From Gammaproteobacteria bacterium (lineage in GTDB: Bacteria; Pseudomonadota; Gammaproteobacteria; Eutrophobiales; Eutrophobiaceae), in contig JAPOQU010000045.1 in NCBI GenBank assembly GCA_026710545.1, positions 1-64,000 of the forward strand: 64,000 bases of DNA. The letters are read 5' to 3'. The translations under genes were made by a program, and so were the position numbers. The stretch's first letter is position 1. Each line of letters begins with the position of its first letter. Below the pieces are notes generated by a model. That model saw nothing but the letters and a program-made list of their open reading frames with translations. It did not search any database and was not told where the DNA came from. This document shows positions 1-12,975 of this stretch, piece by piece.

Positions 1-177
1 AAGGACTGCAACGCCGTATTGGCGCCGCTGTGTGGCTCCCTGCGGGCGGGCCAGGAAGCGGTCGCCCGCGGCGTTACGCCGCTTGGCAAGGACGCGCCAT
101 TCCCGGCGCGGCGTGCCTTGCGCTCAACCGCTTCCCGACCCGCTGAACATGGCAATATCAGGTTGAAAGAGTACTAG
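1..177 (+). CDS. C-terminal end of an unidentified protein, cut by window edge
   Basis: Frame 1 is open from the first base and reads 58 codons ending '...GNIRLKEY' with TAG at 175-177. The stop overlaps the stop of the convergent DUF1638 gene in the palindrome CTAG at 174-177, a compact convergent arrangement that makes both ends credible. The visible tail is rich in Arg and Ala and shows no motif I recognise, so no function is proposed. It could be chance open frame in GC-rich DNA, since only the tail is visible. Confidence 0.4.
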   Translation, partial: KDCNAVLAPLCGSLRAGQEAVARGVTPLGKDAPFPARRALRSTASRPAEHGNIRLKEY

Positions 178-839
178 GTCTCCGCCACGGGATAGGCCGT
201 CAGGCTGAAATCGTCGTGAGTCATGCTGGTGACGGGTTGTTCCCGGTTTTCCATGATGGCGACCAGCCTGCGCTCCAGGTCGCCGTAACCCACGTGCCTG
301 GTCTCGAGTTCCAGGCCGAGAGAAGCGGCGATTTCTTCGGCGCGCGCCAGCAGGGTGGTGTTGTTCTCCTCCTGTGTGAAGTAAACCATGCGCCGGTAAT
401 TGCCGAACATGAGTTGCTGCAATTCCGGGTACTTGTCCATCTTCAGGCCCTGTACGACGAATTTCTGCCAGGCATGCACCAGGTAATCGGTCAGAATGAA
501 CGTGCCGATCTCTTCCTCCATGGCCCTGGGAAATTCCTCACCACCGAACATCTCGTAACAGTGGGGGCCAAGCGGACGCACGGCGCCGTATTTGTTGAGG
601 ATCTCATCCAGGTCGAAGGCGCCGCAGTGACCGTACACGACAACTGTACGCGCATATCTGCCCTGTGCTTTCTGCAAGCGCTGTTCCACGGCCGGCCCAA
701 TCCTGGCCGGTTGCATGTGCAGCCGCGCGTCGATCGCTTCGAACTCGGCATCCCAGCCGTGTTTCCTGATAATATCCTTCACCTCCCGGCCCAGGGCGGC
801 GCAGGCGATGAACAAGGTCTTCGGGGAATTATTCGGCAT
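174..839 (-). CDS. DUF1638 family protein
   Basis: A 221-residue protein with the conserved features of DUF1638: a central 'VVVYGHCGAFDLDEIL' segment, a His-Cys pair in 'PLGPHCYEMFGGEEF', the stretch 'GTFILTDYLVHAWQKFV', and 'FGNYRRMVYF' before a C-terminal 'GYGDLERRL'. The family has no settled enzyme function; in methylotrophs and methanogens its members often neighbour corrinoid-dependent methyltransferase genes, which is known of the family rather than seen here. It is divergent from the molybdopterin oxidoreductase gene with about 180 bases between the starts. The conserved Cys and His residues suggest metal or cofactor binding, by inference only. Confidence 0.85.
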   Translation of the reverse strand: MPNNSPKTLFIACAALGREVKDIIRKHGWDAEFEAIDARLHMQPARIGPAVEQRLQKAQGRYARTVVVYGHCGAFDLDEILNKYGAVRPLGPHCYEMFGGEEFPRAMEEEIGTFILTDYLVHAWQKFVVQGLKMDKYPELQQLMFGNYRRMVYFTQEENNTTLLARAEEIAASLGLELETRHVGYGDLERRLVAIMENREQPVTSMTHDDFSLTAYPVAET

Positions 840-5860: not shown

Positions 5861-5979
5861 CGATAAGCCGGGACTCATCGGCTGCTTCGGAACTGACCTG
5901 GATCTACATGGTATCGCCCACGCGGCGTCAGGCGTGAGGGCAACCAGGATTTCCCGCGTGTATGCCGAGGTATGATCAT

Positions 5980-7996: not shown

Positions 7997-8410
7997 TCAA
8001 TCCTTGTAATGCACCACGGCTACTCCGATTGTCTCCGCTGCCTTCCGCAATCTATCATCCAATGTCGCCAGGGGCAGACTTCGCCTGAGGGCTACTTCCA
8101 GGTATGCTGAGTCGTATACAGTCAACTCAAATCGACGTGCAAGATCAAGGACCTGTACCTCATCATGTCCATCATCAAATGAAATACCCAAGGCCTGGCT
8201 GTCGGCCAGCGTATCCGCTACTTGTTGGTGGGAAATCCGTCCACGGCGCTCATTCATCAGTAACGCGTTACGCAATTCGTACCACCATATACGCGGCACA
8301 ACCCCACCCTCCTCAATAACGTGCAGCATGGTATTGTTTGCCGTGGGGTCATCCTCATCACCCATACACCATGCCATGAATACGGAGTTATCTATGACAA
8401 CAGGCATCAA
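7997..8410 (-). CDS. vapC: PIN-domain toxin, VapC type
   Basis: 137 residues with the PIN nuclease acid cluster: D7 in 'VVIDNSVFMAW', E45 in 'WWYELRNALL', D101 in 'LTVYDSAYLEVA', and D119/D120 in 'LATLDDRLRKAA'. These coordinate Mg for RNA cleavage; VapC toxins usually cut tRNA or rRNA. The gene overlaps its antitoxin by four bases (ATGA), the standard coupling for such pairs. It lies immediately left of the tRNA-Sec insertion and outside its direct repeats. No residue of the active site is missing, so the toxin should be functional. Confidence 0.92.
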   Translation of the reverse strand: MMPVVIDNSVFMAWCMGDEDDPTANNTMLHVIEEGGVVPRIWWYELRNALLMNERRGRISHQQVADTLADSQALGISFDDGHDEVQVLDLARRFELTVYDSAYLEVALRRSLPLATLDDRLRKAAETIGVAVVHYKD

Positions 8411-8649
8411 TATCGGTGCCCTTCATGAGTTGTGGCCATGAGTTCAGCCAACGGTGTTTGCTTGACGTGCCGGCGGCGTTCGACAATGCGCGCGGCCGCC
8501 TCTTTTGCCTGTTTCCTGTCGGTGTTGACGGGAACCAGATAGGCAACCGGTTTACCATGTCGGGTAATGGTAAGCGTTTCTCCGTGCGCCACGCGATCGA
8601 GCAAGCGTGGCAAGTGTGTTTTGGCTTCAAACGCCCCAATCTTTTCCAT
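8407..8649 (-). CDS. Antitoxin, Phd/YefM type (VapB partner)
   Basis: 80 residues: 'MEKIGAFEAKTHLPRLLDRV' is the typical Phd/YefM dimerisation and DNA-binding start, followed by 'TITRHGKPVAYLVPV'. The frame is open further upstream, but the ATG at 8649 is preferred: a GGGAG at 8656-8660 lies six bases before it, while the ATG six bases earlier would abut the same box. The C-terminal tail is basic and short, as in antitoxins that wrap the PIN toxin. It is expected to repress its own promoter; a dyad overlapping a promoter is visible at 8671-8710. Confidence 0.9.
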   Translation of the reverse strand: MEKIGAFEAKTHLPRLLDRVAHGETLTITRHGKPVAYLVPVNTDRKQAKEAAARIVERRRHVKQTPLAELMATTHEGHRY

Positions 8650-8670
8650 CGTCATCTCCCGTTGGGAAAA

Positions 8671-8736: not shown

Positions 8737-8755
8737 ACATCGGCGGAGGTGGATG
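8737..8755. repeat. Distal attachment-site-like direct repeat
   Basis: ACATCGGCGGAGGTGGATG, identical over 19 bases to 10906-10924. On the minus strand it reads as the last 12 bases of tRNA-Sec plus 7 bases beyond, without the rest of a tRNA, as expected for the duplicated end left by site-specific integration. Confidence 0.75.
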
Positions 8756-8808
8756 TCCGCCATTGAACCGCCCCGGATTTGCCGGAGACTCCATTGACGG
8801 AGAGCAAA

Positions 8809-8828
8809 GCGTTCCGCTCCACGGGGGA
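8809..8828 (+). repeat. Left inner inverted repeat of the mini-island
   Basis: GCGTTCCGCTCCACGGGGGA; its reverse complement occurs at 10807-10826 with one mismatch (19 of 20). The pair brackets the fic gene and lies about 55 to 100 bases inside the direct repeats. They could be recombinase arm sites or the ends of a smaller transposed unit. Confidence 0.6.
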
Positions 8829-8890
8829 AAAATGGTTGGCTATGTGAGCCCCACCCCGGAACCAGACGCTCGTAAATTCAAGATTTCCGG

Positions 8891-10318
8891 TCAGGGCGAA
8901 TTGGTGGATGTGTCAGCAGGCGAAGACGCCGCTTTATGCTGCTCCCATGCGTTGAACTCTTCCAGACTTATGCCGTTTCGTAGCAGGAGTCCCATATGCA
9001 GATTCTGCAATTCGGTGTTGACCAGATCAGCGAATTGGTGGATGTCGTTGGCCGGGACCTGTCCCTGCGCCAGCCCCGCTATGCATGCATCCGTGGGTTC
9101 CAGCTGCTCTTTAACGATACGCCCAACCACTGCGGCGAGCGCTATCTCGTACCTGAGCCTGAATGGGTCTGGGTCGCCGGCACGATCTTTTTCCTGTAAC
9201 ACGTTATATCGTCGGCAGGACCGTTCGTACGCCCACACGTACACATCCTGTAACAGGCTGGTGTCGTTCAGTTCGTACACGCCCAGGTTTCCTTCAATAT
9301 AGTCCCTGTCGGGCACGTCTATAAATGACAGGGGGCATAGCCTGTTCTTGATCAGCGGGATATTGGCGCCCAGCCTTGCCGAGCGCTTGTTGACGTCGGT
9401 GAACGGCTGCAGGTACGGCAGATGCACCATGGTGAAGAACGACTGCTCATACGGGTCTTCTATGTCCCTCGCCTTGGCCAGGAACATCCTGAAGCATTCT
9501 TCAACCACTTGTGGGACACCCTTCGGGGAGTAGACAGAGCCGCCTATCTCGACAATCTTCTTCCGCAGTCGCCCGCTGTCTGCCGGGTCGCCCATCAGGT
9601 TTGATGACAGCAGCCCGTGCAAACCCATAAACGTGTACATGTTGTAGTCTATGTGCTCTGCATTATTCAGCAACATCTCAATAGCACGTTTGTGATTCAG
9701 GATCATCGTAGCTTCAACCCTGTCTTTCCCCGCGGCATAAATCCCTTTCTCAACCAGGTTCTCGGTGTCAATTCGCGAGTAGGTATTGCCTTCCAGACGG
9801 CTGGATGCCCAGGACAGGTCGACCAGCAACCGGTTGACTGTTTCCGGCTGGTACGTGCTACCTGCCGGCAGGGCCGTTGGCCTTATTTCGCCGATGCTGT
9901 ACAGGTCCTGTCTGATCCTGTCCGGCAGGTAGTAGGTGTGGTTCGGTATGTAGCTTTCCAGGAAGGTGCGCTTGTAATCGGCAGGCTCCCGTTCCTGAAT
10001 TGGACGGCGTACATAGTCCTGGATCGCTTTGCTCTCATCAGAGATGGGGACCGACTGCTTGGCATCATAAACGGTATTGAGCACAGGTGTTTCGGCGGGG
10101 CGCCGGTATTTTACTGCTCTGGCCTTCCCTGAACGAACGATTTCTCCCTCTTTAACCAGTGCCAGCAATTTTCTCCCCACCGTTCTGTAAACGGGGGCCT
10201 TGTCAGGAGATATCTGTTTTAATTGCGCATAGATATCGGCGCTGCTGAGTCCATCCTCAGCAGAGTCAACGATCTCAACGATGAGTTCTGATACGTCTTT
10301 GTTAACGGCGTCTGTCAT
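8891..10318 (-). CDS. Fic/DOC-family protein with N-terminal winged helix and altered active site
   Basis: 475 residues. Residues about 10-72 look like a winged helix-turn-helix ('SADIYAQL' through 'KARAVKYRR'). An inhibitory-helix motif of the (S/T)xxxE(G/N) type is at 172-177 ('SSRLEG'). The Fic core motif, normally HPFxDGNGR, reads 'QPFTDVNKR' (304-312): the catalytic His is Gln304, and Gly is Val309. Canonical AMP transfer needs that His, so the protein is probably not a standard AMPylase; it may bind nucleotide or act as a regulator. Five copies of a 10-bp sequence directly upstream suggest control by its own DNA-binding domain. It is the main cargo of the tRNA-Sec mini-island. Confidence 0.88.
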   Translation of the reverse strand: MTDAVNKDVSELIVEIVDSAEDGLSSADIYAQLKQISPDKAPVYRTVGRKLLALVKEGEIVRSGKARAVKYRRPAETPVLNTVYDAKQSVPISDESKAIQDYVRRPIQEREPADYKRTFLESYIPNHTYYLPDRIRQDLYSIGEIRPTALPAGSTYQPETVNRLLVDLSWASSRLEGNTYSRIDTENLVEKGIYAAGKDRVEATMILNHKRAIEMLLNNAEHIDYNMYTFMGLHGLLSSNLMGDPADSGRLRKKIVEIGGSVYSPKGVPQVVEECFRMFLAKARDIEDPYEQSFFTMVHLPYLQPFTDVNKRSARLGANIPLIKNRLCPLSFIDVPDRDYIEGNLGVYELNDTSLLQDVYVWAYERSCRRYNVLQEKDRAGDPDPFRLRYEIALAAVVGRIVKEQLEPTDACIAGLAQGQVPANDIHQFADLVNTELQNLHMGLLLRNGISLEEFNAWEQHKAASSPADTSTNSP

Positions 10319-10349
10319 GTTCTGTGCCTTGCATCATATTATACGGGAT

Positions 10350-10404
10350 TGTCCAGATACTGTCCAGATAGATGTCCAGATACTGTCCAGATACTGTCCA
10401 GATA
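10350..10404 (-). promoter_or_regulatory. Five phased direct repeats upstream of fic (operator-like)
   Basis: TGTCCAGATA (minus strand TATCTGGACA) begins at 10350, 10361, 10373, 10384 and 10395, that is at steps of 11, 12, 11 and 11 bases, placing each copy on the same face of the helix. The array ends 32 bases before the fic start codon. The pattern fits cooperative binding by a multimeric regulator, most simply the Fic protein's own winged helix. Confidence 0.65.
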
Positions 10405-10431
10405 TTGCCAACCGTTATCATTGTCAAAATC

Positions 10432-10737
10432 TCAGAAAGGAGCTGAAACAATGCTTAACATATAATGAACAAGCATGCTGACCAGATCGATGTCGGCGAT
10501 GTTGAGGAGTTGATTATGGGCGACACCTGCCCTCAGAGACAAGTCTGCCTTGCGGTCACCCGGGACGCCCTCCAGCGGTGTCAGTGAGCAGACCGCCTTG
10601 TGCGGTTCGTTCATGGCAGGCAGGGAATGGTCATACCAGACGTCCTTCCATTTGCCGGATACCGTGCCGTGATCGAACTGGGCCTGCATCATGGCCCGGG
10701 AGACGGCCTGCGGGTCGCGGCGGAGCTCCTCGGGCAA
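10432..10737 (-). CDS. Doubtful small ORF or gene remnant in the mini-island
   Basis: A 101-codon frame beginning at TTG ('MPEELRRDPQAVSRAM'), and open about 20 codons further upstream without any ATG before an in-frame stop. The amino-acid mix looks protein-like (for example 'GTVSGKWKDVWYDHSLP'), but there is no good ribosome site and no family I recognise. It lies upstream of the fic operators on the same strand. It could be the tail of a gene truncated when the island formed. Low confidence that it is expressed. Confidence 0.3.
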   Translation of the reverse strand: MPEELRRDPQAVSRAMMQAQFDHGTVSGKWKDVWYDHSLPAMNEPHKAVCSLTPLEGVPGDRKADLSLRAGVAHNQLLNIADIDLVSMLVHYMLSIVSAPF

Positions 10738-10806
10738 GGTCTTTTTGAATGCGGCCCGCCGGCGGCTCTCTTCCTTGTTAATGTATTCAGTCAGTTACAA
10801 CTGTTA

Positions 10807-10826
10807 TCCCCCGTAGAGCGGAACGC
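10807..10826 (-). repeat. Right inner inverted repeat of the mini-island
   Basis: Reverse complement of 8809-8828 with one mismatch. It lies in AT-rich DNA between the doubtful small ORF and tRNA-Sec. Confidence 0.6.
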
Positions 10827-10905
10827 CTTTAAAATATCACAAACAGAAACACACATATCGTGACATAATATCAGTTTTGTAATGTTTTCAATTAGTTATA
10901 TAAAC

Positions 10906-10924
10906 ACATCGGCGGAGGTGGATG
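10906..10924. repeat. tRNA-proximal attachment-site-like direct repeat
   Basis: Second copy of ACATCGGCGGAGGTGGATG. Bases 10913-10924 are the 3'-terminal 12 bases of the tRNA-Sec gene, so the tRNA stays intact after insertion. Confidence 0.75.
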
Positions 10925-11002
10925 GGAATCGAACCCACCACTCGCGTTGGGCAAGTCACTGGTTTTGAAGACCAGGGAAGTCACCAGACTTCATTCACCT
11001 CC
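10913..11002 (-). tRNA. selC: tRNA-Sec (anticodon TCA)
   Basis: Read on the minus strand, the 90-base body begins GGAGGTGA and ends ...CCACCTCC followed by G. The anticodon arm 'CTGGTCTTCAAAACCAG' presents TCA (complement of 10966-10968), the T arm 'TGGGTTCGATTCCCA' is canonical, and the long extra arm accounts for the length. One A-C mismatch sits at the eighth acceptor pair. The genome encodes CCG rather than CCA after the discriminator, so CCA would be added enzymatically. It lies just downstream of selB, as in Pseudomonas. Together they indicate the cell decodes UGA as selenocysteine. Confidence 0.95.
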
Positions 11003-11030
11003 AGTCAGTCCATCTGTGGGGTCAGCTATA

Positions 11031-11062
11031 TTTGGGGTCAGAGCTATTGCTCTGACCCCAAA
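11031..11062. repeat. Palindromic repeat, family A (GGGGTCAGAGC), copy 1
   Basis: A perfect 14-bp stem (11031-11044 with 11049-11062) and 4-base loop, with an extra half copy GGGGTCAGC at 11019-11027. The same palindrome recurs at 62424-62463. On the minus strand it encodes the last residues and stop of SelB ('NLGSEQ' then TAG). Confidence 0.9.
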
Positions 11063-12975
11063 TTTTTGTTCCCCGGGTTCAGTTTGCGTTTGTCGCCGAT
11101 ACGGATGGTCACGCGCCGGCTGTCCAGGTATTCCAGCAAGGGTATCGCGTACTTTCTTGAAGTATCCACCAGTTTACGCGCGTCCGCCACGCTGAATGCG
11201 GTGGAACCGGGGTAGGCCTGTTCCAGCATGGTCACCATGCCCTCGATGCTGCGGCGGTGGAAAACCAGCACGCGGTTTGTGTCCCTGTTGTGTACCGGCA
11301 CAAGTTCGCCCGTATCGGCCAGGAGGCGGTACAGGCGTTTCCTCTGCGGGTTGCCCTGCAGGACTTCGCCGGGTTCGGGCGGTTTCAGGCCACCCGCGGC
11401 AAATGCCGAGGCGATATCCTCAGCTATCTTTTTCTCCTGTGGATTGAGCGCGCCCAGGGGATCGAAATCCCGCAGCCGGATAATGCTCTTGTCCGTCTGG
11501 AGCAGGCCTTGATCCACCAGGTGTTCAACCAGGAACCTGAAAACCGGTTCGTCCACGCCTGCTTCCAGGCCTGAACGGAACTCCGTCAGGGGTTGTCCTT
11601 GCCGGCCCGGGTTTGCCTCGTGAAACCGGCCGACCCCGGCCAGCGCCTGTTCGCACAGGCTGTCGAATGCCGATCTGGACAACAAGCGCTGCGGTCCTGC
11701 GAAAACAACTTCTGTCTTGTCCAGTCCCTGCAGCAAATCGTCCGCTGCCAGGTTCATGGAACGGGACAGCTCAGCCATATCCATCCCCCGTACTCCTGTT
11801 GCCCGTATCAACTCATCGACGACTTCCGCCGTGTCGCCGCTGGCCAGGTTGGCCAGGCGGGACACGGCGCTGTTGTCCGAGCGGCGGTGTTTTGCCGGGG
11901 AATTGTCCAGGATGCGGCCGCCGCCGATGGTTGTCACCGGCGACATGCTGCGCAGGATAAAATGTTCGCCCACGGGCACCGCCACGTCGCGCCGGCAGGC
12001 AAGCTGCGCCACGCATAATGAACCCGGCTTTGGTTGCCGCTCTCCCAGGATGCGCAGCGCCGCCGGTTCTTCACAGGTTCCGAACAGCACCCGGGCCATC
12101 TCGCCGTACCTGGGTTGCGGGCGTACCCGCTCCAGCAACTGCAACTCCACGTCCAGCAACCGGGTCGGTTCCAGGTATCCCGGGGAGGCCAGCGCATCGC
12201 CTCTTGCAACCTGTTCCCTGTCGATGTTACGCAGGTTGACCGCGACCCGCTGTCCGGGGTACGCAATCTCTTCGACCTTGTTATGGACCTGCAGTTGACG
12301 GATACGTGCGCGGCTGCCGCGCGGCATGATCTCGACCTCCTGGCCGTTTGCCAGGGTACCGTACCGCAGGGTGCCGGTGGCGACGGTGCCGAAGCCGGAC
12401 ATGGTGAATACACGGTCCAGCGGCAGGTAGCACTGGCCGCTATCCGCTCTTGCGGCGGGGTTGTGCAACTGCTTTTCCAGCAGGACCCGTAAATTGTTCA
12501 GGCTGCGTGCATCGTTCACGGATACCGCGATCACCGGCGCAGCTTCCATGAACGTGCCTGCCGTGAAACTGCTTATCTCGTCCCTGACCCGGTCGCAGCC
12601 GGCGTCATCGACCAGGTCGGACTTGGTAATCACTACCAGGCCTTTGACCAGGCCCAGGAAACCTGCAATGTTGAAATGTTCTTCCGTTTGCGGCTTGATC
12701 CCTTCGTTCGCGGCCACCGCCAGCAGCAGGAAGTCTATACCGGTGGCGCCGGATATCATCATGCGGATGAAATCCTCGTGACCGGGGACGTCAATGAAGT
12801 CGATGACGCCGCGTTCGGATTCAAGAAAGGCGAATCCGGGCACAATCGACAACCCTCTTTCCTTTTCTTCCCTGAGACGATCAGTTTCCATGCCCGTAAG
12901 CGCCCTGACCAGGCTGGTTTTGCCGTGGTCAACGTGCCCGAGTACGCCTACCGTGATGTGCGCGGGTCTATCCAT
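11044..12975 (-). CDS. selB: Selenocysteine-specific translation elongation factor SelB
   Basis: 643 residues. GTPase motifs are visible: G1 'GHVDHGKT' (13-20), G3 'DVPGHEDF', and G4 'TKSD'. Translation-factor beta-barrel domains follow ('LDRVFTMSGFGTVATGTL'), then the C-terminal winged helices that bind SECIS RNA in mRNA. SelB carries Sec-tRNA to the ribosome at UGA codons. The gene ends inside a palindromic repeat that contributes its last codons, so the natural C-terminus may have been slightly altered. selA, which precedes selB in Pseudomonas, is absent here: the next upstream gene belongs to an EthD/Rieske operon. Confidence 0.96.
   Translation of the reverse strand: MDRPAHITVGVLGHVDHGKTSLVRALTGMETDRLREEKERGLSIVPGFAFLESERGVIDFIDVPGHEDFIRMMISGATGIDFLLLAVAANEGIKPQTEEHFNIAGFLGLVKGLVVITKSDLVDDAGCDRVRDEISSFTAGTFMEAAPVIAVSVNDARSLNNLRVLLEKQLHNPAARADSGQCYLPLDRVFTMSGFGTVATGTLRYGTLANGQEVEIMPRGSRARIRQLQVHNKVEEIAYPGQRVAVNLRNIDREQVARGDALASPGYLEPTRLLDVELQLLERVRPQPRYGEMARVLFGTCEEPAALRILGERQPKPGSLCVAQLACRRDVAVPVGEHFILRSMSPVTTIGGGRILDNSPAKHRRSDNSAVSRLANLASGDTAEVVDELIRATGVRGMDMAELSRSMNLAADDLLQGLDKTEVVFAGPQRLLSRSAFDSLCEQALAGVGRFHEANPGRQGQPLTEFRSGLEAGVDEPVFRFLVEHLVDQGLLQTDKSIIRLRDFDPLGALNPQEKKIAEDIASAFAAGGLKPPEPGEVLQGNPQRKRLYRLLADTGELVPVHNRDTNRVLVFHRRSIEGMVTMLEQAYPGSTAFSVADARKLVDTSRKYAIPLLEYLDSRRVTIRIGDKRKLNPGNKNLGSEQ

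Follow-up and report, generated by a model that had tools for sequence, protein, structure and literature searches.

A fic gene between att-like repeats at the 3' end of tRNA-Sec: a likely remnant of an integrative element in an uncultured gammaproteobacterium

What placed a single fic gene between two copies of the end of a tRNA-Sec gene, and can the gene still leave? One locus raises this question in the window, the whole stretch of 64,000 nucleotides that was analysed (positions 1 to 64,000 of contig JAPOQU010000045.1, assembly GCA_026710545.1). The initial annotation had recognised an integrase-less insertion that att-like repeats frame at the 3' end of tRNA-Sec, and had left two options for its origin: a minimal, helper-dependent island or a deletion remnant. 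The insertion itself is borne out. Of the two options the deletion remnant is favoured, as insertion-sequence scars make up a mosaic interior that speaks against a helper-dependent island. We think it likely that an integrative element at tRNA-Sec decayed by deletion into this CIME-like remnant, and that at least two inserts are stacked here, of which it is probably the youngest.

The two 19-bp direct repeats (ACATCGGCGGAGGTGGATG) are identical and were given with the right coordinates and sequence in the initial annotation (Table 1). They occupy the only 2 sites of this 19-mer in the 4.43-Mb assembly when up to 2 mismatches are allowed, and the chance expectation for a 19-bp repeat in the window, from base composition, is ~9e-7. 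Since ARAGORN places tRNA-Sec across the proximal copy, that copy consists of the final 14 nt of the tRNA and 5 nt downstream; downstream, the copies stay alike up to 34 nt (85%). The repeats may act as att sites, with CATCCACCTCCGCC as the putative att core. Between them lie ~2.17 kb (GC: 53% in the unit, 24% in the 76 bp adjoining the tRNA, and 59% in the window), in which fic is, as first annotated, the only clear intact gene. The 3' end of tRNA-Sec reads into GCCG here (10906-10912) and into GCCA in most sister genomes, so the CCA end is apparently not encoded. Both repeats hold GCCGATGT against GCCA in the sisters, which counts against reading the unit as an integrative remnant, as that reading then requires a lineage-specific tRNA end or conversion. 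A hairpin (ATTTGGGGTCAGAGC/GCTCTGACCCCAAAT, 11030-11063) between selB and tRNA-Sec resembles a repetitive extragenic palindrome.

Table 1. Features of the tRNA-Sec locus (positions in the window)
Feature	Position	Strand	Remark
DUF1638 gene	174..839	-	conserved neighbour past the variable interval
BKACE gene relic	5885..5957	-	eroded; marks the old chromosomal side of the interval
PIN-domain toxin	7997..8410	-	vapBC-type pair in the neighbouring, probably older insert
Phd/YefM antitoxin	8407..8655	-	vapBC-type pair; start codon approximate
Distal 19-bp repeat	8737..8755	-	copy of the tRNA-Sec 3' end, att-like
Solo insertion-sequence end	8764..8795	+	presumed IS3-family type
Inverted repeat, left arm	8806..8831	+	26 nt (88%), terminal-repeat-like
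fic	8891..10318	-	475 aa, noncanonical class II-like Fic protein
11-bp repeats (about five)	10350..10404	.	upstream of fic; putative operator
IS-transposase-like fragment	10471..10788	-	truncated at both ends
Inverted repeat, right arm	10804..10829	-	26 nt
Proximal 19-bp repeat	10906..10924	-	att-like
tRNA-Sec gene	10911..11002	-	anticodon tca; ARAGORN
selB	11044..12975	-	conserved neighbour, tRNA side

Six other genomes of the genus were available, of which five have a tRNA-Sec adjoining selB and were compared; the remaining one, G005, was left out, having no tRNA-Sec match and a SelB match only at elongation-factor level. The selB side of tRNA-Sec is conserved in the compared genomes and the opposite side is variable: tRNA-Sec leads directly into BKACE with nothing inserted in G006, and to DUF1638 with essentially nothing inserted in G004; G003 carries a 1.0-kb insert with a TacA-type antitoxin and a GNAT acetyltransferase; G001 carries a 4.3-kb insert (RloB, AAA ATPase, HigB with an HTH partner, and others) followed by BKACE and then DUF1638; and G002 has different genes again downstream of tRNA-Sec. 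In the window, the positions of DUF1638 and of the BKACE relic point to ~5 kb of inserted DNA next to tRNA-Sec, comprising the fic unit, the PhdYefM/PIN pair, FAH, and LigB, with the BKACE relic beyond. Inserts start at the tRNA end in three species. The interval from tRNA-Sec to BKACE/DUF1638 is a repeatedly used insertion site, often with toxin-antitoxin or defence-type cargo.

Constant presence of fic at this locus, with no empty site, would have told against the initial annotation; fic stands there in 0 of the 5 other genomes. The empty-site comparison came out in part: essentially nothing is inserted in G006 and G004. A strict empty site would have tRNA-Sec and the vapBC side linked by a single 19-mer, and none of the sisters shows one, because the vapBC-side left flank is absent at the tRNA-Sec locus in every one of them. 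The absence of a strict empty site in the sisters counts against the integrative-remnant reading, as does the outcome of a search for a distal tRNA-end copy, which returned none at the BKACE relic or within the inserts of G001 and G003.

Over the 24 nt past the tRNA end, the two copies here share 15 matches (p = 0.0008), and the proximal copy shares 17 with G003 (0 of 5000 shuffles); most other pairs of such flanks are not alike, and there is a weak resemblance to G013. Read as arms of related elements, the like flanks suggest that the vapBC side is an older insert and the fic unit a younger one; alternatively, they may be ancestral tRNA flank. The former order agrees with the rule that the most decayed elements stand furthest from the target gene (PMC7563491).

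Inside the repeats, the unit is scarred. Next to the distal repeat is a solo end, which we take from general knowledge of such ends to be of the IS3 family; it recurs at other places in the genome and on plasmids from several, mainly rhizobial, genera. A separate 73-bp element (L072 1062-1134) consists of two IS3-type ends that face each other across almost no intervening DNA. The 26-nt inverted-repeat pair is absent elsewhere in the genome, and its motif gave 0 matches in the genome-collection scan. The transposase-like fragment derives from a family of 520-610 aa proteins, called "insertion element protein" in one record and IS-like in character; a zinc-ribbon match falls below cut-off, and three relatives, weak or broken, were found among 369 genomes of the class. 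Scans of the viral collection were empty for the inverted-repeat motif, the tRNA-Sec 3' end, the transposase fragment, and fic; the sole viral match, 18 nt of the repeat, is on a phage contig that has no tRNA; we take it as a chance hit.

The fic product passes the Pfam Fic domain (PF02661: 25.3 bits, cut-off 24). The Fic family core motif is HPFx(D/E)GN(G/K)R with a catalytic His (PMC5651007); the core here is LQPFTDVNKR, in which Gln replaces that His and which does not match the motif of AMPylating Fic proteins. As in class II Fic proteins (FICD-like; PDB 5jj6), the Fic domain is joined by an N-terminal inhibitory-type SxxxEGN motif (SSRLEGN, matching the class II pattern (S/T)xxxE(G/N)), and it is the Gln in the core that sets this protein apart from them. 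Because all fic relatives read (L034-L047, L162-L172) have Gln for His, with a subfamily core of LQPFxDVNKR, and nearly all keep SSxLEGN, we take the gene to belong to a conserved noncanonical subfamily and not to be broken. Toxicity persists in a Campylobacter fetus Fic whose core is degenerate (PMC5651007); that protein retains the His, so activity of the Gln-core Fic cannot be assumed. An AlphaFold model built on two sequences had a mean pLDDT of 38.7 and was set aside as poor.

The gene is preceded by 11-bp repeats (TGTCCAGATAC). Period-11-bp repeats upstream of fic are significant in 6 of the 7 copies tested in the genus, by a lenient test in which 13% of random control stretches reach p 0.05 and which the genus copies pass with far better scores; in the seventh (G001 C73) repeat copies are visible and the test was not passed. 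Among distant plasmid relatives only 2 of 11 pass. The unit differs between groups of copies (TGTCCAGATAC here, TATTGGCCATC-like in G003, and ATTGGGCCAGT-like in G000 C16), which would fit a separate operator for each Fic protein, and a regulatory or toxin-like role for fic under autoregulation may be proposed. Such arrays precede fic in L059, L060, L062, L063, and L064. The conserved His-to-Gln subfamily, with an upstream repeat that differs per copy, may merit separate study.

Beyond this locus, the genome-collection scan found fic in the G001 genome only. That genome (JAJDUB01, a gammaproteobacterial MAG) has a copy 93.6% identical over 8882-10329, which, together with its upstream repeats, sits between polysaccharide genes and has neither the tRNA-end repeats nor the 26-nt inverted repeats. 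The same polysaccharide locus is continuous, without fic, in the present genome and in G006, and other genes compared between this genome and G001 are mostly 75-88% identical. Given the higher identity of fic and the empty polysaccharide locus here, fic has moved recently. Among the plasmid relatives of fic, 4 of 11 have a complete or partial tyrosine integrase next to them, 1 of 11 lies beside another recombinase, and some adjoin HipA or ParDE.

We propose that site-specific recombination would have brought an integrative element into the tRNA-Sec 3' end, with the tRNA end copied at the far border, and that the element would then have lost its integrase and other mobility genes through deletions and insertion-sequence activity. 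The outcome would be the 2.17-kb remnant, with fic as the sole intact gene between two att-like sites; it would be the tRNA-proximal insert, and the vapBC-FAH-LigB stretch, towards BKACE/DUF1638, the older one. In favour of this proposal are the unique repeats, the variably filled interval with inserts that start at the tRNA end, the like flanks, the scars, the lack of an integrase on the contig, the high identity of fic to its G001 copy, and the plasmid relatives beside integrases. Inside the unit, a search for relics of integrase, relaxase, or phage genes found only IS-type scars, a result that counts against the proposal and leaves an ICE, IME, or prophage ancestor putative.

This origin was weighed against others that make different use of the same repeats. 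If fic were a transposon passenger between the 26-nt inverted repeats (8806-10829), in the manner of a mobile insertion cassette, it could have moved into an older tRNA-Sec island or scar, and the 19-bp repeats would stem from that older event. The inverted pair is unique in the genome and inward-pointing, the transposase-like fragment stands beside one arm, and three full-length members of the transposase-like family bear terminal repeats of ~27-34 nt; but the arms match those terminal repeats no better than background, no target-site duplication was found beside them, and the G001 fic copy has no such arms, and we regard this history as unlikely. It is rather improbable that no integrase took part at all and that local duplication or ectopic recombination copied the end of the tRNA together with its flank, with unrelated DNA coming between the copies. 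The likeness that continues past the 19 bp into the downstream flank would fit such a duplication, as would the resemblance of the flank to G003 and weakly to G013, from which it could be ancestral tRNA flank; however, the flank is absent in G001, G002, G004, and G006, inserts begin at the tRNA end in three species, and the duplicated piece ends within the tRNA, as att cores do.

Whether the unit is still live bears on a further alternative, a minimal island excised by a helper integrase in trans. Both repeats are intact, and the genome has seven tyrosine recombinases besides two Xer-like ones; yet no third copy of the att core was found, beside these or elsewhere in the genome, the integrase type that accompanies fic on plasmids is without a relative here (in the genus, the search returned only one Xer-like protein per genome), and the interior is scarred. 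We therefore hold a live island to be very unlikely, and the suggestion in the initial annotation that the unit may still be excisable finds no support: neither a matching integrase nor a circle junction was found. The lack of an integrase noted initially applies both inside the unit and to the 123-kb contig, on which no tyrosine-recombinase (Phage_integrase) domain was found. A more specific form, in which fic and two att sites make up a live passenger that borrows an outside integrase and carries, as stabilising or defence cargo, the His-to-Gln Fic governed by an 11-bp-repeat operator of its own, has an even slimmer chance of being right. As a deletion remnant, the unit is probably no longer self-mobile, and excision at present would require a recombinase from elsewhere, or the integration of a new element at either att site.

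Most likely this is a known kind of thing and not a new self-moving element. Genomic islands at selC/tRNA-Sec are known in enterobacteria and share insertion at the tRNA-Sec 3' end; the unit here is much smaller, has no integrase or virulence genes, and lies in another tRNA sequence context. A mobile insertion cassette is a passenger gene between IS-type inverted repeats without a transposase, and the unit resembles one in that its gene lies between inverted repeats and a transposase fragment is all that accompanies it; the differences are the lack of a target duplication, arms unmatched to known IS, and nesting within tRNA-end repeats. The closest parallel is with CIMEs, decayed ICE/IME remnants that retain attL and attR (PMC5704250, PMC7563491) and have reported sizes of 1.2-13 kb (PMC7563491), a range that includes the 2.17-kb unit. 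Shared with them are attL/attR-like borders at a tRNA 3' end (putative att sites), a cargo gene only, no integration or transfer genes, and apparent stacking beside another insert. The unit differs in having no traceable ICE/IME parent and no functional element in tandem, in its place at tRNA-Sec of an uncultured gammaproteobacterium, and in an excision that is only putative.

If the deletion-remnant reading is right, fic is a case of one cargo gene outliving the machinery that delivered it, in an uncultured gammaproteobacterial genus whose tRNA-Sec site gathers and erodes small inserts. Cargo at this site is often of toxin-antitoxin or defence type (fic, vapBC-type, TacA/GNAT, HigB, and RloB/AAA). 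At the edge of the window (1-178; also L058 10861-11125) is a MITE-like palindromic repeat of ~265 bp, matched dozens of times across this genome and its sisters; it occurs at both ends of contig C45 and splits the fic upstream region in G001.
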